Positions 30,345 to 38,235 are shown, counted from the stretch's first letter. The stretch is DNA of 64,000 nucleotides from Aceticella autotrophica (GCF_017357865.1 NZ_CP060096.1:1-64000), one strand, 5' to 3'. Notes: a model not told the origin generated them from the letters alone. A program made the numbers and translations.

Positions 30345-30770
30345 ATGAATAGGAAAGAATTTGAGGATTATCTTGGTGAGAAGGTCAACAGTGAAGTTTC
30401 AGAAGAGCTGAGTTCAAGGTTTGGAAAACCCAATCAACAAGACCAACAACAAGCACAGCAACAGGCACAGCAGGTACAGCAGCAGCTTCAAAACATGGGT
30501 ATAAATGTTACTCCACAGCAGTTTCAGCAATTATTAAATCAGGTAAAAACTCAGGCACAACAGCAACAAAATCAAACAGATATGCAGGTACAGCAGGCGT
30601 TACAGCAGGCTATGGCAGCACTGCAGCAGGCACAGCAAAGCATACAGGCAAATCAGGTATTTGCTCAAATGAGCAAGATTTTAGATTCCTCAAATCAGCA
30701 ATTGCAGCAGTTGACTCCTCAAATGCCGGGACAGCAACCTGCCGGTATGCAACAGCCACAGGCACAGTAA
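30345..30770 (+). CDS. Glutamine-rich low-complexity protein
   Basis: The 141-residue product has a charged head (MNRKEFEDYLGEKVNSEVSE) and then becomes extremely rich in Gln with Ala, Met and Pro from about residue 30 to the end. It has no membrane segment or signal peptide. The RBS AAAGGAGGG is strong, codon spacing is clean and a terminator follows, so it is a real gene. Gln-rich proteins of spore formers include gamma-type SASPs and coat proteins, but the repeat structure of gamma-SASP is not evident. I do not assign a function; a structural or spore-related role is a guess. Confidence 0.8.
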   Translation: MNRKEFEDYLGEKVNSEVSEELSSRFGKPNQQDQQQAQQQAQQVQQQLQNMGINVTPQQFQQLLNQVKTQAQQQQNQTDMQVQQALQQAMAALQQAQQSIQANQVFAQMSKILDSSNQQLQQLTPQMPGQQPAGMQQPQAQ

Positions 30771-31066: not shown

Positions 31067-31244
31067 TGATTGCGAGTTAAAATTAGATCTTATTATAGTC
31101 AGACTGTTTTTGTTTTTCACGGTCTTTTATTTTTCGAAATCTCATAGTTTTATTTGTAAAATTAATTTCTATTGTTCAACGTGATAGGGGTGGAAATTAC
31201 TTTTTCAATTAACTTTTTTTAAAAAAGCGCTACAAAAAACAAGG

Positions 31245-31346
31245 ACAAGAGGGACGGTTCCTTTTGTCTGAAAAAAATCAGACAGAAGGAACCGTCCCTC
31301 TTGTTTTTTTTTGTTTCTTTGTTTGAGGAACCGTCCCCTTTGTTTG
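31245..31346. repeat. Large palindrome plus extra copy of the GGGACGGTTC repeat family
   Basis: The arm at 31245-31271, with core GGGACGGTTCCTTTTGTC, is repeated in inverted order at 31278-31304 with a single difference, making a 27-bp stem with a six-base loop. A long T run follows, so the plus-strand RNA could also terminate here. A further partial inverted copy, AGGAACCGTCCCC, lies at 31326-31338. A related solitary copy is at 24180-24204 in the rib operon. The composition is unlike the AT-rich surroundings. Such elements resemble REP sequences spread by IS200-like TnpA_REP transposases; none is encoded in the window. Confidence 0.9.
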
Positions 31347-31443
31347 TAACCATTTTGTAACCAAAATTTAAGGATTTATTAATAAATTTTAACATTTAAA
31401 GAGGTATAATGGAAGAAAAGGGAGAGGCAAGGAGGGTAAAGAG

Positions 31444-31845
31444 ATGAAGGAAAATGATGTAGAATTCACTTTTATTGGGTATTTAGATAGATATGTTAAG
31501 TTAGAATCTATAAAGCTTAAGAAGAAATATCAAGAAGTAAAATATAGGGAACTTTTAATATTGGATGCACCAAGAAATAATGGGAATAGTGAGAGTAAAG
31601 AAGAGGTAGTTGATAACATCACATATAGTTATATCGCATTTGAGGATGAGGTAATAGATAAATGTATGCTTTCAAAATATAAAGAATTACTTGAACCAGA
31701 GGAATTTGAGGTATTAATACTAAATATTGTAGAAGGCGTATCTCAAAAAGAAATTGCAGTAATGCTCAATAAAACACAGTCCTATGTAAGTAAAAAGAAG
31801 AAAAAAGCCTTTAGAAAATTGAAAAAATTTATTAAGGAAGTTTGA
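31444..31845 (+). CDS. Sigma-70-like protein lacking the first half of region 2 (SigO-like subunit)
   Basis: The 133-residue protein ends in a sigma region 4 helix-turn-helix: LLEPEEFEVLILNIVEG (about 83), then VSQKEIAVMLNKTQSYVSKK (about 100-119). Its first 40 residues, with FTFIGYLDRYVKLESIKLKK, resemble region 2.3-2.4 followed by a linker, but regions 1.2-2.2 are absent. The next gene, four bases downstream, encodes just that missing part. This parallels the two-subunit B. subtilis factor SigO/RsoA, in the same gene order. RBS GGAGGGT; TATAAT upstream at 31404-31409. A fragment of a second copy lies at 34671-34703. Probably a dedicated regulator of the secreted proteins downstream. Confidence 0.7.
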   Translation: MKENDVEFTFIGYLDRYVKLESIKLKKKYQEVKYRELLILDAPRNNGNSESKEEVVDNITYSYIAFEDEVIDKCMLSKYKELLEPEEFEVLILNIVEGVSQKEIAVMLNKTQSYVSKKKKKAFRKLKKFIKEV

Positions 31846-31849
31846 AATT

Positions 31850-32050
31850 ATGGAGGAATGTGAAAAGCTTTTTGAAATTATTTTGAAAGCAAAACAAGGG
31901 GATAAGGAGGCCATAGAGGAAATAATAAAGCTTTTTGAGCCCTTGATAATTGGCAGTATAAGAGGTGCAGATGAAGAAATAAAAAAAGAGTTAAAGCAGG
32001 ATTTAATCGAGATTATAATAAGAGCAGTAAAGAATTTTGAGATAAAATGA
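31850..32050 (+). CDS. Sigma region 2-like small protein (RsoA-like subunit)
   Basis: The 66-residue protein reads like sigma-70 regions 1.2-2.2: a KAKQGDKEAIEEIIKLFEPLI helix pair (about 13-33), then an acidic link and KQDLIEIIIRAVKNFEIK (about 49-66), matching the usual EGYIGLLRAI-KF core-binding helix. It stops where region 2.3 would begin, and the preceding gene supplies 2.3-2.4 and region 4. It could alternatively be called a helix-turn-helix domain protein of the conjugative-element type. The spacing of four bases and the RBS TTATGGAGGA inside the gap suggest coupled translation and a complex between the two. Confidence 0.7.
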   Translation: MEECEKLFEIILKAKQGDKEAIEEIIKLFEPLIIGSIRGADEEIKKELKQDLIEIIIRAVKNFEIK

Positions 32051-32136
32051 AAAATAAATTTTGAATTATGGAATATTTTTTAGAAATTTTAGCTTTTATA
32101 TAGATAGAGGGAGAAATAAAGAAGTGGGAGGTGAAA

Positions 32137-32193
32137 ATGTTTATAAAATGTTCCCCGGGAATAAAAGATGAGGGAGGTAGATATCTTTTATGA
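32137..32193 (+). CDS. Candidate 18-residue leader peptide coupled to the secreted protein
   Basis: GGGAGGTG stands four bases before ATG 32137, and the frame reads MFIKCSPGIKDEGGRYLL. Its TGA overlaps the ATG of the next gene (ATGA at 32190-32193), and the RBS of that gene lies inside this frame. This is the usual layout of translational coupling. No family is recognised, and it may be only a leader that meters expression of the exported protein. Confidence 0.4.
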   Translation: MFIKCSPGIKDEGGRYLL

Positions 32194-33458
32194 AACATCA
32201 AACAAGATTAACGACAGTACTACTCATTACAATATTTTTAATAGGTATAGTGACTACAGGATTTACTTCAACACCGAAAACAAGCACAAAAGAATCAGTT
32301 AGTTTAAGCAACACAACAAATTTTGATGACCCTATTGCAGTAATTAAAGGTATGATTCAAGCAATTAACGATCAGGATCCTTATGATTATATGAACTATT
32401 TTACCAATTCTAATCGCACAGCCATGACACAATTTCTTTCAAGTAATAAATCAGAATCATTCTTTAAAGAAAAGGAAGCTAAGTTGATTCAAATTAAAGA
32501 GCTTCCAAAGGAAGTAGGTGTAGTAGCTGCAGGCATAACATCTGGAGAAAACTTGAATTTGGATGATACACGCATTTTTTATGCCGAAATTAACTTTAAA
32601 GTTGATAAAGAAGATAAATGGCTATATAATGGTACAAACCATCGTGTTATTGTTGTTACAAAAGAAGATGGAAACTTGAAAATAGTAAGACTTTCGGTTC
32701 CATCTATAGAATACTTAAAAGATACCGGCAATGGATTTAATTCAGAGGATGAAAATATTGCTGTTAAAATCGAAAGCACTCTTGATAAAAAAGGACAAGT
32801 AATGAATATGAATGGCATGGTTATTGATAATATTGCTGCAAGTGAAAAACAGCTAAAAAATGAAAAATTAAATCCTATAGCTATTAAACCTGAAATTGGT
32901 ATAGATAGTACAGCAACTGATGAACATACGAGACCTTCTAATATCAGGGTTTACATGACAAACTCAGTAAATATAAATCATTATGGTTCCGGAACTCACC
33001 TTGTTGATTTTGGAGATTACGTATATAATGTATTGCCAAATGAATGGGGCGACTGGTACAATACGGCGAAAACAGCAGTTCAAGCTGGAGCTATAGCTGT
33101 AAAAATGTATGGTTGGTACCATGTGTATCATCCAAAATGGAACTTTAGCCCTTATTATGCTGACGTACAAGATAATACAAATGACCAAGTATATAAATAC
33201 AATTCAGCAACAACTAATTTTAAAAGTGCAGTCAATGATGTTGGAGGGATTGGTGTCGATATACTTAGTGGATCGTCTTATGTTCTATTTGAGGTGCATT
33301 ACGTAGCAGGATCTAAAGGACCAGGCGGGCAATATAGTGGTACGATGTGGCAATATGGAACGTTATATTGGGCAAAACAAGGTAAAGGCTATACTTACAT
33401 GTGTCATTATTATTGGGACAGCTCGGCAACTCAGCCAATACATTTCTTTTACTATTAG
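32190..33458 (+). CDS. Secreted protein with C-terminal SpoIID/LytB-type domain
   Basis: The 422-residue product has a Sec signal peptide (Lys/Arg start, hydrophobic core LLITIFLIGIVTTGF at about 12-26). The N-terminal half (about 45-180) resembles NTF2-like lipoprotein domains. The C-terminal part (about 255-422) has the SpoIID/LytB pattern: LVDFGDYVYNVLPNEW with the conserved glutamate (about 272-287), AVQAGAIAVKMYGWY (about 294-308) and QYSGTMWQYGTLYWA near the end. Members act on peptidoglycan. Start ATG 32190 follows GAGGGAGGT. It comes after a split sigma factor and a possible leader peptide; a terminator follows. Confidence 0.75.
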   Translation: MKHQTRLTTVLLITIFLIGIVTTGFTSTPKTSTKESVSLSNTTNFDDPIAVIKGMIQAINDQDPYDYMNYFTNSNRTAMTQFLSSNKSESFFKEKEAKLIQIKELPKEVGVVAAGITSGENLNLDDTRIFYAEINFKVDKEDKWLYNGTNHRVIVVTKEDGNLKIVRLSVPSIEYLKDTGNGFNSEDENIAVKIESTLDKKGQVMNMNGMVIDNIAASEKQLKNEKLNPIAIKPEIGIDSTATDEHTRPSNIRVYMTNSVNINHYGSGTHLVDFGDYVYNVLPNEWGDWYNTAKTAVQAGAIAVKMYGWYHVYHPKWNFSPYYADVQDNTNDQVYKYNSATTNFKSAVNDVGGIGVDILSGSSYVLFEVHYVAGSKGPGGQYSGTMWQYGTLYWAKQGKGYTYMCHYYWDSSATQPIHFFYY

Positions 33459-33467
33459 AAATTATTT

Positions 33468-33508
33468 AATTGAGCAGGAATAATTAATGTTTTCCTGCTC
33501 AATTTTAA
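33468..33508 (+). terminator. Terminator after the SpoIID-domain gene
   Basis: AATTGAGCAGGAA (33468-33480) pairs with TTCCTGCTCAATT (33492-33504), followed by a few T residues. Confidence 0.85.
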
Positions 33509-33527
33509 AGATTAGGAGGTATTATCA

Positions 33528-34610
33528 ATGCAAATAAAAAAATTAATGATATTGGTTTTATCTTTATTTTTATTTTTTTATTTTATTTTTATTTTTTTAT
33601 ATGGATGTCAATATCATGTTTTTGATAAAAACCAAGTTAAATTAATCAAATATTCCGTTCCAAATTTAGGGTATTTCTGTCCGATTTTTTTTCAAGGGAA
33701 AGAGATTTTAGCGCAGCAGGGGCAAGATACACCAAGGGATTTAACAAATATGGCTTTGTATTCTAGTAAAGATTTTAACAAATACAATAGGATAGCTATA
33801 TTTGAAGGTCATTTTGGGCAATTTTATGTCTCACCATATAATTCAAAAGAAATATTTTTTATGTCTACTGAAGGGAAAGAAGGTACAGAGCAAATTATTT
33901 TCAAAAGCAACGATGGCGGGAAAAGTTGGGAGCAAGTTTATTATGATTCAGCGAATAACATGATGATAGCTGATATGACATTTAGCCCTTCCAGTAGAAA
34001 TGTAATATTCTTAATTAAAAATGATAAAAAACTTGGCATTGAAATAATAAAAAGCCATGATTCGGGGATTCATTGGAGCAAGGGGAATTATATAAAAGAT
34101 ATTACTATGGCTTATCATCTTGTTATTGATCCTAATAATTCTAAGCATTTTTTAGTTTCCGCTTCAAATGGTCTTTGGGAGAGCATTGATGGAGGTGTTT
34201 CGTGGAAACAGATAACCACCTCAGAGTCTTTGGCAGCTATTTTTGTTCCTTCTAGAAATGATAATGTATACTTCATAACTAGAGAATCTGTTACTGAAAG
34301 ATGCATATATGAATTAAATAATGGAAAAATAAAAAAGATTAGTATCCCAAACGTGGAGAAATTAATTTACGACGTTGGAATTGCTTATCAAAGCAGTACA
34401 GGAAAGGTGTATGTTATAGTAATACGGCAAAATGAAAATAATTCTCTGTATGATACTGCTTTATATTACCTTAAAAATGATTCTTTTATCAAAATAACTA
34501 ATATCAAAAGTAAAGACAGTATTCTTCCAAATTTGATTTTTGATGCTACAAACTCGAACGTTATATATTTTTACAGTTATAAAAATATATACAAAGTAGT
34601 CTTATCTTGA
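33528..34610 (+). CDS. Probable lipoprotein with BNR/Asp-box beta-propeller
   Basis: The 360-residue product begins with a hydrophobic stretch rich in Leu and Phe, ending in a lipobox-like FLYGC (cysteine at about 27), so it is probably membrane-anchored outside. Three Asp-box repeats are visible: KSNDGGKSWEQ (about 133), KSHDSGIHWSK (about 180) and ESIDGGVSWKQ (about 222). Such repeats mark sialidase-like or photosystem-assembly-like propellers. No sialidase catalytic residues can be assigned, so a binding or scaffold role is as likely as an enzyme. RBS TTAGGAGGT. It lies just after the SpoIID-domain gene, beyond a terminator. Confidence 0.7.
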   Translation: MQIKKLMILVLSLFLFFYFIFIFLYGCQYHVFDKNQVKLIKYSVPNLGYFCPIFFQGKEILAQQGQDTPRDLTNMALYSSKDFNKYNRIAIFEGHFGQFYVSPYNSKEIFFMSTEGKEGTEQIIFKSNDGGKSWEQVYYDSANNMMIADMTFSPSSRNVIFLIKNDKKLGIEIIKSHDSGIHWSKGNYIKDITMAYHLVIDPNNSKHFLVSASNGLWESIDGGVSWKQITTSESLAAIFVPSRNDNVYFITRESVTERCIYELNNGKIKKISIPNVEKLIYDVGIAYQSSTGKVYVIVIRQNENNSLYDTALYYLKNDSFIKITNIKSKDSILPNLIFDATNSNVIYFYSYKNIYKVVLS

Positions 34611-34879
34611 TTCGGATGAGGGAGGCGGAATGTCTCTTTATGACCAAAGCAAGGCCCAATAAGGTTATCATAAGAAATATCAAGAAGTAAAATATAGAGA
34701 ACTATATGATAAATTTTTCTTAAATTCCATTAGCATTAATTTTATCACAAGATTATTTAATCTGATAATTTTTTCGATTTTGGACTAAATTAATTTGAGA
34801 AATGACAATTAATATCTCAAATTTCTCAGGTTCAAGTAATTCGTTAATACAACACGAGATATAGAAAGAGGATGGTTAT
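34611..34879. pseudogene. Decayed stretch with a fragment of a second sigma-like gene
   Basis: The bases at 34671-34703 match 31521-31552 inside the SigO-like gene nearly exactly (AAGAAATATCAAGAAGTAAA and on), but here no frame continues. The rest of the stretch has no gene I can support. It looks like the debris of a duplicated sigma gene or cassette. Confidence 0.7.
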
Positions 34880-35083
34880 ATGAAAATAGTTGCAGTTACA
34901 GCTTGTCCTACAGGGATTGCTCATACCTACATGGCTGCTGAAGCATTAGAAAATGCCGCAAAAAAACTTGGACACAAGATAAAGGTTGAGACACAGGGCT
35001 CAATTGGTATAGAGAATAAAATTTCTCAAAAAGAAGCTAATGAAGCAGAACTTGTAATCTTTGCATTAAGCCAGTCCGCTTAA
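34880..35083 (+). pseudogene. Truncated fructose-type PTS EIIB domain
   Basis: The 67 residues match the first two thirds of a fructose-specific IIB domain: the phosphorylated cysteine in [18 protein letters not shown] (about 6-23) and [12 protein letters not shown] (about 36). A complete IIB domain runs to about 100 residues and is normally fused to or followed by IIC and IIA. Here the frame runs into unrelated residues and a stop, and no other PTS gene is nearby. RBS AAAGAGGATGG is intact. It is best read as a gene remnant, although a short product might still be made. Confidence 0.8.
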
Positions 35084-35315
35084 AAGCGGCCAAAGTTGAA
35101 TCAATGCGCATCGCATAAGCATAAAAGCCACTTCCAAATCCGCAAGTTTGGAGGTGCTTTTGAAGAATCAGTAAATAGCATACCAGCCAAACTTACGCTA
35201 CGACATGATTATGAAGCATGAAATCGTATATCATCATTTCCAATAAAATTACTCCAAATGTATTATTTAAAATTATAATTATATCTTTAATAGTTTAAAG
35301 AATATAGGTGATATA

Positions 35316-35758
35316 ATGAAAAAGAGAGATTTTTAAGTACATATATAAAGTTTTAAAACCATATATAGGTAAGGAAGTATTAGGCTTTTTGTAATAATAA
35401 TTTCAACTATTTTGTCGCTGGTAAATCCATATGTAATTAAGTTAATTATAGATATTGCTATAGCAAACAAGGACATTCAGAGTTTAATAAGATTTAGCGC
35501 TATATATTTTGTTATATTTTTATTAGTAACATTATTGGATGTATTCCAAAAATATATTTTTACATAAATAAAGACAAAAATTATTGTATAACTTAAGAAT
35601 GAACTTAGATAAAATTATAATGAATCAAAGAATTACTTTTTTTAATGAAAAGCAAACTGGTGAAATAATGTCAAGGGTATTAAATGAACTTCCTGATGTT
35701 GTAGATTTATTTACAGGAACACTTATAAATGTTATTACTCAGGTTGCAACGTTTTAAG
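35316..35758 (+). pseudogene. Degenerate ABC-transporter transmembrane domain
   Basis: Translated fragments in shifting frames read like the start of an exporter-type ABC protein: a segment LSLVNPYVIKLIIDIAIANK near 35410-35470, hydrophobic FSAIYFVIFLLVTLLDVFQK near 35490-35550, and FFNEKQTGEIMSRVLNELPD near 35637-35700. Several stops and frameshifts interrupt it and the ATPase domain is missing. It is a clear gene remnant, next to other debris. Confidence 0.85.
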
Positions 35759-35805
35759 ACACAAATAAATTTTCCTTGATATGGTGTTTAGTGTAAAATA
35801 AATTC

Positions 35806-35948
35806 GGTCCTTTCCAAAGTTAGTTAAAATTAAAGAATAAAACCTTACTTCTTAATATTTTAAAACTACAATTGCTGTAAATATAATTTATTAGTAATTT
35901 CAATATACCTGAAAAACAAATTTTACTCAACTAACTTTAGGAAGAACC
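35806..35948. mobile_element. MITE-like element with 20-bp terminal inverted repeats
   Basis: GGTCCTTTCCAAAGTTAGTT (35806-35825) and AACTAACTTTAGGAAGAACC (35929-35948) are inverted repeats matching at 17 of 20 positions. They enclose about 100 bases of AT-rich DNA without coding capacity. The 143-bp size fits a miniature inverted-repeat element or a remnant of an insertion sequence. I see no clear target duplication, and the parent transposase is not in the window. Confidence 0.55.
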
Positions 35949-36055
35949 ACTTTTAGAGCAACATAAACAAATACGGTTTTTAAGATAAAAATAGTATGAA
36001 AAAATAATTAAAAACCACAGGGTAAAAATTGCCTTCAAAGTATTGAAATTATGGC

Positions 36056-36358
36056 TTATTTTATTTTTTCAATCATTTCTTCTACTTCTTTTGCTCCATC
36101 AACATAAAATTTTTCCTCATCCGGAGCTAATTCTTTTAAAAGCCTTAAAAACTCTCCTGCATGTACTTTTTCTTCATCCGCTATATCATTTAAAACTTCC
36201 TTTGCCAATTCATCATCAGTAGCTTCTGCCAATTGTGTGTAAAGCTGGATTGCTTCATACTCTGCAGCTACCATAAAACGTATAGCTCTTACCAACTCTT
36301 CATGGGTTATTTTTTTCTTTTCAGTGAGTCCTGAAAAAGGGGTTCCAAACTCTGGCAT
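36056..36358 (-). CDS. Half-size ferritin-like diiron protein
   Basis: The 100-residue protein has two long helices with ferritin-like metal ligands: E in VAAEYEAIQLYTQLAEATDD (about 31-50) and the paired EE-x-x-H in ADEEKVHAGEFLRLLKE (about 60-76). A complete four-helix bundle would need a dimer. The MPEFGTPFSGL start recalls small ferritin or rubrerythrin family proteins of anaerobes, some of which are cargo of encapsulin nanocompartments; no encapsulin gene is seen here. A role in iron storage or oxidative stress is likely. Single minus-strand gene beside pseudogenes and an IS. Confidence 0.85.
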   Translation of the reverse strand: MPEFGTPFSGLTEKKKITHEELVRAIRFMVAAEYEAIQLYTQLAEATDDELAKEVLNDIADEEKVHAGEFLRLLKELAPDEEKFYVDGAKEVEEMIEKIK

Positions 36359-36485
36359 AAAATCCCATCCTTTCGTATTATTATTAAACTACAAGAATAT
36401 TATATCATAAATTTAGGTAATTCCAAAAATTATAAAGCTATGATGTATATTATAATGTTCTTGAGATGGCAGTAGAATGTATTTG

Positions 36486-36502
36486 AGGTTTTTAAGGCGC
36501 TC
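36486..36502. repeat. Left target-site duplication of the insertion sequence
   Basis: AGGTTTTTAAGGCGCTC, 17 bp, identical to 38236-38252. Confidence 0.95.
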
Positions 36503-38235
36503 TGTCAATAGTCTGTGAAAATGTCATGTTTAAATATGCTTTTATGTTTCAGTGATGGTAACAAATTTTTCTTAAAACGAAGTAAAATTGTAGCAAAAGA
36601 TTTTGAATTGATAATAATATAAAATTGTCGAAGAGCCTTTCAAAGCACGCGTTAATTGTAGATATACTATGTATAGAATATTATGTCTTGTAATCTAAAG
36701 ACATAAAAACATGCAATTTATTCTATACATCTCTTTAAAAGAGAAACCTTAAAAAAGGCATAGGAAATTAAGCCTTGATAAATACCATCAAAGCGAGTAT
36801 CATAATATATGACAATATTTTTCTATGCCCATGCACGCGTAGAATTGAAAAGCTGATTAAGCATTTCAACGATCTCACGATCGGTTTCTTCATACGCGTA
36901 ATTGGGCTTCTTCTTTTGTGCATGCCGCCATGGGTGATCGGCACTTGGCTTTACTATAGTTTGTTTCACAGTTTTCTCTTTAGATAACTTTAAAGATTCT
37001 TTTTTTGGACGTTCATCAAGAAGCAAAGTATCATATATAACATCAGCATAGAAAGCTTTTACGCCTATTTTAGAACTACTTAAGACAGTAAGTTTAGCTT
37101 TGGGCATAGCTGGAGCCTTTTTACCATTCTTGATAAGTTGATAATACTTACCCTTGTAAGAAAAAGCAGACCCTTCAATGATAGTACGCTCTTCCTTTAC
37201 GCATAAGATATAATCAAGGTTAATATTAGAATCAAGCGTTCTAAAAGCATGTTCAGGATTTTCAGGTTCGACACCAAACTTTTCATTGTAAGCGACAATA
37301 AATTGCGATAAAAATGCATTAGCAGCTTTCATAGTATCAATTCCATGAATCTTAAACTCAACAGGAAGCCTGCTTTGAAGCGTATCCCATAGCTTTTCAA
37401 TGCGGCCTTTAGCTTGTGGAGAATTAGCCTTAATAACGTTGATTCCAAGCTCTCCCATAGCTCTTTCAAACTGAGTAAAATTAACTGTCTTTCCCTCTAA
37501 TTGTTCTTCTATAGATAGTTTACCGCTATTAGGAGAGACAAAGATAGTGTGACGGTCAGAATATATACTGATAGGGATACCATGGTTGTTAACGATTTGT
37601 CTTATGACTTCGAAATATCCTTCCATACACTCGTTAGGAGCAAAAAAAAGTGCAAGAATTTCACCGGTAGCGTCATCTATAGCTCCATGTAGAGTAAATG
37701 ATTTATCTCCTATGATCCATTCATGTGGAGAAGCATCAATCTGAACCAGCATTCCCTTTTGAGGCTTTCTCTTTCTTCGATGATGAGATTTACGCTTACG
37801 ATGTTTTTTAGGGCTTTTAATACCCTCTTTAGTCAATATCCTATATATTGTAGAATAACTCACATTAATATTTTCATGTTCTTCCAGTAACTCAGAAAAA
37901 TGCATGAAATTAGCCTCTTGGTACTTTGTTTGTTTTAACTCAACAATTTTGGTTCCGATTTCATCCGAGAGAGCATGCTTAGGCTTCCTACCTCTATTTT
38001 TATGAATTATGAACGCAGGACCATCTTTTAAAACCCCTCCTTTTAACCTTATTACTTGGCGTTCACTGAGGCCCAGAAGGTCAGCAGCTTCTCTTACGGT
38101 TATAATTTTATCAATAGTCTGATTGATAACTCTAAGACGACTTATTTCTTTTTGAGTCATATTGAATATCTCCTCTCTCATACAAGACATTTTATCAGAA
38201 TAAATTCAATATGACATTATCACAGAATAATTACA
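36503..38235 (-). mobile_element. Complete IS1202-type insertion sequence, 1733 bp
   Basis: The element starts TGTCAATAGTCTGTGA and its other end, read inwards, starts TGTAATTATTCTGTGA. The ends match over most of about 33 bases (common core TCTGTGA-AATGTCAT). It carries one transposase gene on the minus strand and about 320 bases of non-coding DNA at its left end, which includes a hairpin near 36680-36707. It is flanked by perfect 17-bp direct repeats. Size, TGT ends and the long duplication fit the IS1202 family. The intact gene and perfect duplication indicate a recent insertion. Confidence 0.93.
36823..38190 (-). CDS. Transposase of the IS1202-type element (DDE)
   Basis: The 455-residue transposase has an N-terminal helix-turn-helix (EAADLLGLSERQVIRLKGGV, about 34-53), a second DNA-binding segment with basic KKHRKRKSHHRRKRK (about 132), and an integrase-like DDE core: D in MLVQIDASPHEW (about 152), D in ISIYSDRHTIF (about 210) and E in QAKGRIEKLWDTLQ (about 264). 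No frameshift is seen, so it is probably functional. The 15 or so residues before MTQKE may be extra N-terminus; the exact start is uncertain. Confidence 0.92.
   Translation of the reverse strand: MSCMREEIFNMTQKEISRLRVINQTIDKIITVREAADLLGLSERQVIRLKGGVLKDGPAFIIHKNRGRKPKHALSDEIGTKIVELKQTKYQEANFMHFSELLEEHENINVSYSTIYRILTKEGIKSPKKHRKRKSHHRRKRKPQKGMLVQIDASPHEWIIGDKSFTLHGAIDDATGEILALFFAPNECMEGYFEVIRQIVNNHGIPISIYSDRHTIFVSPNSGKLSIEEQLEGKTVNFTQFERAMGELGINVIKANSPQAKGRIEKLWDTLQSRLPVEFKIHGIDTMKAANAFLSQFIVAYNEKFGVEPENPEHAFRTLDSNINLDYILCVKEERTIIEGSAFSYKGKYYQLIKNGKKAPAMPKAKLTVLSSSKIGVKAFYADVIYDTLLLDERPKKESLKLSKEKTVKQTIVKPSADHPWRHAQKKKPNYAYEETDREIVEMLNQLFNSTRAWA

Follow-up and report, generated by a model that had tools for sequence, protein, structure and literature searches.

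Two adjacent small genes of Aceticella autotrophica are, as judged from their sequences, complementary halves of one sigma factor, which would act as two subunits. It is probable that this pair switches on an array of secreted and surface-protein genes in heat-loving clostridia. In the reading that we prefer, with a probability of about two thirds, the two-subunit factor starts transcription at a conserved element, here named P2, and serves this modular array of exported genes in trans. The genes lie in the first 64,000 nucleotides (the window) of a single-contig genome of 2.27 Mb, counted from dnaA at the window start. The family to which this genome belongs includes Thermoanaerobacter and Thermoanaerobacterium.

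Two Genes Predicted to Encode One Sigma Factor

The large subunit, of 133 aa, is encoded at 31444..31845 and the small subunit, of 66 aa, at 31850..32050, both on the plus strand and separated by 4 bp. The large subunit has an N-terminus resembling regions 2.3-2.4, followed by region 4, a composition that suggests a role like that of SigO or Orf7. The small subunit covers regions 1.2-2.2 and carries the HTH_16 domain, suggesting a role like that of RsoA or Orf8. The helix-turn-helix of region 4 is present in the 133-aa protein (Sigma70_r4, E 5e-9, 35.9 bits against a cut-off of 24.1), and the 66-aa protein matches HTH_16 (PF12645) with an E-value of 1e-12. On an HMM of intact sigma factors, the 66-aa protein occupies positions 9-69 and the 133-aa protein positions 72-196; the two halves adjoin, and their gene order is swapped. 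This coverage places the cut between region 2.2 and region 2.3. Profile-profile alignment against 11 intact sigma factors gave a similar picture, with the small family at columns 10-76 and the large family at columns 70-209 (hhalign E 1e-11 and 2e-10, respectively). By both methods, region 2 of the sigma-70 family is present and divided over the two proteins. The initial annotation had proposed a sigma factor split over two small genes in swapped order, and these matches and coordinates bear out both points.

The HTH_16 profile also matches residues ~2-65 of intact sigma factors of 180-260 aa from the same and related genomes. On sequence, PF12645 appears to be a family of sigma region 1.2-2.2 fragments and not a classical helix-turn-helix family, and its name would be misleading. 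The 66-aa protein falls on sigma regions 1.2-2.2, not merely on an unrelated helix-turn-helix family. Its AlphaFold model has a pLDDT of 90, and sigma factors make up all 17 of its best matches among PDB folds, most of them to region 2, with TM scores of 0.61-0.76 and probabilities up to 0.99; the E-values, 0.4 or more, are not significant because the protein is so short. The PDB sequence search with the same protein returned nothing useful. The model of the 133-aa protein matches sigma region 4 in Foldseek with a probability of 1.00, and its N-terminal half is modelled at low confidence. The expectation that the two proteins, fused as second-then-first, would read as one factor was borne out in part: the match of the fusion covers the whole generic sigma70-ECF model of NCBIfam, but the score rises only from 36.7 to 37.4 bits, with a cut-off of 42.9.

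The pair is present in 11 of the 20 family genomes. Between genera, 74% of second codon positions and 54% of third codon positions are conserved. This conservation speaks against a chance arrangement. A broken full-length sigma gene is ruled out by the swapped order, the conservation of the pair, and the constraint at the protein level. An origin from phages or plasmids was also considered, but the large subunit had no tblastn match in collections of plasmids and phages.

Duplicated Header Block and P1

The pair is preceded by P1, an AT-rich conserved promoter region at 31361..31413 on the plus strand, with the core TTAATAAATTTTAACATTTAAAGAGGTATAATGG at 31379-31412. It contains TATAAT, and no match to the sigma-70 -35 element was found in it. 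P1 is 69% identical between genera, and it is retained in cassettes without sigma genes. In its own genome it occurs exactly twice, ahead of each of the two copies of the pair. The header block at 31344..32119 (plus strand), composed of P1, both sigma genes, and P2, is duplicated; the second copy is 98.97% identical and lies on the minus strand at about 1.502 Mb of the same contig (G000:C1; L033 10957-10182). The flanks of the two copies are unrelated, and the second copy heads different products, an exported Amidase_6 protein and a lipoprotein. The same left edge of the block is seen in relatives. The likeness between P1 and P2 is not significant (p 0.07 and 0.32), so autoregulation of the pair's operon, a known property of SigO, is unsupported here.

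A long near-perfect inverted repeat with arms GGGACGGTTCC lies directly upstream of P1, at 31232-31314. Elements resembling it, GGAACCGTCCC, are observed in several related loci and may represent a repeat family or a terminator. Upstream of the cassette, positions 30345-30770 contain a glutamine-rich ORF of 141 aa.

P2, a Candidate Promoter Behind the Pair

The region 32051-32136, to which the initial annotation had drawn attention, contains P2, a bipartite promoter-like element GGAATATTTTT-N8-TTNGCTTTTATATA at 32070..32102 on the plus strand. A pattern built from the pair-bearing loci found 35 sites, 31 of them perfect, in 14 of the 20 family genomes; the reversed pattern, as control, found one. 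Nine genomes drawn from other families of the same order and class yielded no P2 site. When the two genus groups are compared, identity reaches 100% in the left box and 96% in the right box but 42% in the 8-base spacer, which is fixed in length; the corresponding values are 54% for the third codon positions of both sigma genes and 57% for the leader. The boxes are far better conserved than the adjacent DNA, indicating that P2 is more than a hitchhiker. Such a pattern is the signature of a promoter whose two boxes lie at a fixed distance. We infer that GGAATA would be its -35 element and that the -10 element would lie within GCTTTTAT, at a distance typical of ECF-type promoters.

P2 is present in all 11 pair-bearing genomes, each of which has a copy right behind the small gene. 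Six of the nine pair-less genomes have no P2, and three (G001, G003, and G011) have P2-like sites. The co-occurrence of pair and P2 among the 20 family genomes (Fisher p 0.002) and the excess of perfect sites in pair-bearing genomes (30/31, against 1/4 in pair-less genomes; p 0.002) come from tests that overstate independence, since the genomes share ancestry. The P2-like sites in the three pair-less genomes imply that another factor may read P2, or that P2 is decaying there. The gene next after P2 begins with an export-type N-terminus, hydrophobic or with a lipobox, at about 25 of the 28 inspected sites, whereas only 4 of 45 background genes from the rest of the window do so (p 3e-12), as scored by a simple hydrophobicity rule.

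It is also conceivable, though we consider it unlikely, that the split sigma factor is real and controls other genes, and that P2, as an ordinary promoter or operator, is used by SigA with an unknown regulator and co-duplicated with the header. The position of P2 inside the duplicated block, the retention of P1 together with P2, and the presence of P2 in three genomes without the pair all fit this explanation. However, P2 shows no match to the sigma-70 consensus, boxes at fixed spacing would not be expected to stand out so far above the adjacent DNA between genera, and P2 decays where the pair is missing.

Exported Genes and Cassette Arrays

The header in the window is followed by an ORF of 18 codons, read from the sequence at 32137..32193 (plus strand), which overlaps the next start in an ATGA. 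The initial annotation had listed a tiny coupled ORF here; the ORF is probably this one, but its peptide differs between loci and is probably not a conserved one. The frame varies among homologous leaders. Given this lack of conservation, it is more likely to be a leader sequence carrying ribosome-binding sites.

The next gene, at 32190..33458 (plus strand), encodes an exported protein of family F4 with an N-terminal signal, a DUF4829-like N-terminal part (18.3 bits, below the cut-off of 25.5), and a SpoIID-like C-terminal domain (28.5 bits, cut-off 23). The PDB sequence search with this protein gave no match. Family F4 also follows P2 in G001, G007, G009, G013, and G015. A terminator-like palindrome, a self inverted repeat at 33468..33504 (plus strand) followed by T-rich DNA, separates it from the second exported gene. 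That gene, at 33528..34610 (plus strand), encodes a lipoprotein of family F16 with a BNR/Ycf48-type beta-propeller. It matches Sortilin-Vps10 with 52 bits (cut-off 33) and NF045728 with 64 bits, under the cut-off of 175, and its hydrophobic N-terminal stretch ends in LYGC. The secreted SpoIID-domain protein and the propeller lipoprotein that had been noted downstream are both present by profile matches.

Two remnants of the large sigma gene are found behind the cassette. One, at 34672..34703 on the plus strand, is left from another copy of the gene and matches 31522-31553 with 96.9% identity over 32 bp; the other, at 34808..34846 on the minus strand, matches 31680-31718 in reverse orientation with 89.7% identity over 39 bp. 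Beyond the cassette, 34880-38190 contains apparent gene fragments (the starts of a PTS EIIB gene and of an ABC transporter gene) and a transposase-like gene. Together with the two remnants, it is a rearranged region.

In related genomes, the array unit is P1, the pair where present, P2, and exported genes, and the order of the exported families changes. The families include C39-like peptidases, Amidase_6, SpoIID-like and DUF4829-like proteins, BNR propellers, and other lipoproteins. In several species of Thermoanaerobacterium (G007, G009, G013, and G015), the arrays share one chromosomal site, flanked by an SNF2-like gene on one side and the arg operon on the other. The claimed linkage to exported genes in related genomes held in this survey. 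The products are exported, as had been suggested, but they are not specifically wall-active and the contents of cassettes vary; the conserved link is therefore to P2 and to exported genes generally.

Ten cassettes lack both sigma genes, and their P1 and P2 are 64-77 bp apart. They show two kinds of junctions, indicating that the sigma genes were lost at least twice. Short repeats, such as AGCAT, are read at the breakpoints. Two Thermoanaerobacter cassettes (L043 2994-3301, minus strand; L044 8729-9217, plus strand) keep P1, the small gene, and P2, and have lost the large gene mostly or wholly. In G014, the large gene is intact and the small gene is frameshifted. The loss of genes with retention of P1 and P2 is the pattern expected where a factor acts in trans on a target in cis.

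The pair is surrounded by exported genes, housekeeping genes, and IS elements and does not lie in an ICE with xis and int, as the Tn916-type pair does. An improbable explanation is that the pair is what remains of a regulator of the Tn916 Orf7/Orf8 type whose conjugative element has been lost, and that it is now a header, mobile or selfish, that controls no regulon. Tn916-like elements do share the split and the gene order, and the headers are duplicated and fragmented. On the other hand, no integrase, excisionase, or transfer genes were seen beside any array of the family, the proteins are under constraint in two genera, and the association with P2 and exported genes is constant. It is very improbable that the 66-aa protein is a small helix-turn-helix protein unrelated to sigma factors and the 133-aa protein a stand-alone region-4 regulator, as the Pfam name and the small gain of the generic sigma model on fusion might suggest, because profile and fold comparisons put the former on sigma regions 1.2-2.2 and HTH_16 matches the N-termini of intact sigma factors.

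Proposed Mechanism

In the preferred reading, a two-subunit sigma factor acting at P2, the 66-aa protein would supply regions 1.2-2.2, the part that binds the clamp of RNA polymerase. The 133-aa protein would contact and melt the -10 element with regions 2.3-2.4 and recognise the -35 element with region 4. Both subunits would assemble on core polymerase and initiate at P2, just downstream of the pair and ahead of most exported-gene cassettes. Units of header plus gene would duplicate and recombine, with deletion of the sigma genes from many copies, and one or two intact pairs would serve all P2 promoters of a genome in trans. The exported peptidases, amidases, and lipoproteins would have their role at the cell surface. 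The natural deletion derivatives separate the trans-acting pair from its presumed cis target.

Comparison with Known Two-Subunit Systems

Like SigO and RsoA of Bacillus subtilis, the two genes are adjacent and share the sigma-2 and sigma-4 roles, with the large subunit (region 4) first and the small subunit (region 2) second; the gene order of SigO/RsoA is presumed here from the initial annotation and the operon name yvrI-yvrHa. SigO/RsoA (YvrI/YvrHa) place the sigma-2 and sigma-4 functions on two proteins, both required at the cognate promoter, and the subunits have been employed as an AND gate (PMC10028694, PMC8103513). These papers describe RsoA as sigma-2 and, through the title of Xue et al. 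2016 cited in PMC10028694, as having a region 2.3-like segment. In contrast to RsoA as described there, the cut in the window pair is inside region 2, with regions 2.3-2.4 left to the large subunit. The genes under SigO control are oxdC-yvrL, yvrJ, and the SigO operon itself (PMC8103513), whereas the genes linked to the pair here encode variable exported proteins. In the neighbourhood of the pair, no conserved anti-sigma gene stood out.

L094 shares the split and the swapped order of the window pair: a 143-aa Sigma70_r4 protein is followed there by a 76-aa HTH_16 protein. We take L094 to be Tn916-like from its gene order and from the Xis- and Int-like proteins recognised downstream. L108, another pair from an ICE-like locus, spans sigma positions 72-193 and 10-70, with the cut at the same point as in the window pair. 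Orf7 is reported to up-regulate xis and int, and Orf7/Orf8 to raise transcription both of xis/int and of the transfer genes (PMC7288454). Unlike the window pair, to which it is only distantly similar in sequence, the Tn916-type pair adjoins excisionase and integrase and has no exported array.

Split pairs in the natural order, with separate proteins for regions 1.2-2.2 and 2.3-4 and the small-subunit gene first, are present in other Bacillota (L041 11078-11646, minus strand; L046 5605-6345; L091 5635-6390; L113 1408-2274). The L091 pair has a compatible cut point, and some of these pairs adjoin holin-like or lysozyme-like genes. Counted by eye, HTH_16 matches in short open frames occur in roughly three dozen of 399 genomes of the phylum. 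In a distant family, L045 (G041 contig 50, 1734-5052) contains a split pair and then a second copy of the small-subunit gene. Both small-subunit copies there have a nearly identical block of ~110 bases before two different genes, one of them NAGPA-like (below cut-off). The theme of a header with a changing gene is seen again, with a promoter-like block different from P2.

Because the same split is found in the Tn916-like element and in L108, and split pairs also occur in natural order, the window system is not the first of its kind, and the earlier view of SigO/RsoA as the sole such system does not hold. No two-subunit sigma factor besides SigO/RsoA was found described in the literature searched, and no description of the Thermoanaerobacter cassette arrays or of this system was found in a search that lacked most subscription journals. 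At even odds, split HTH_16/region-4 pairs are widespread two-subunit sigma factors that have gone largely unrecognised as a class, and one of them, in Thermoanaerobacter and Thermoanaerobacterium relatives, uses its own bipartite promoter to run recombining cassettes that diversify exported peptidases, amidases, and lipoproteins, the regulator being often deleted and acting in trans.

The pair would represent a second, distinct two-subunit sigma lineage beside SigO/RsoA, with a precise candidate promoter and a cut within region 2. It makes testable how a sigma factor with region 2 cut in two works, whether the HTH_16/Orf8-type genes that abound in conjugative elements encode sigma subunits, and how the members of a shuffled surface-protein array can share one regulator. 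Among the known split pairs, the system is a variant set apart by its dedicated conserved promoter and its recombining exported cassettes.
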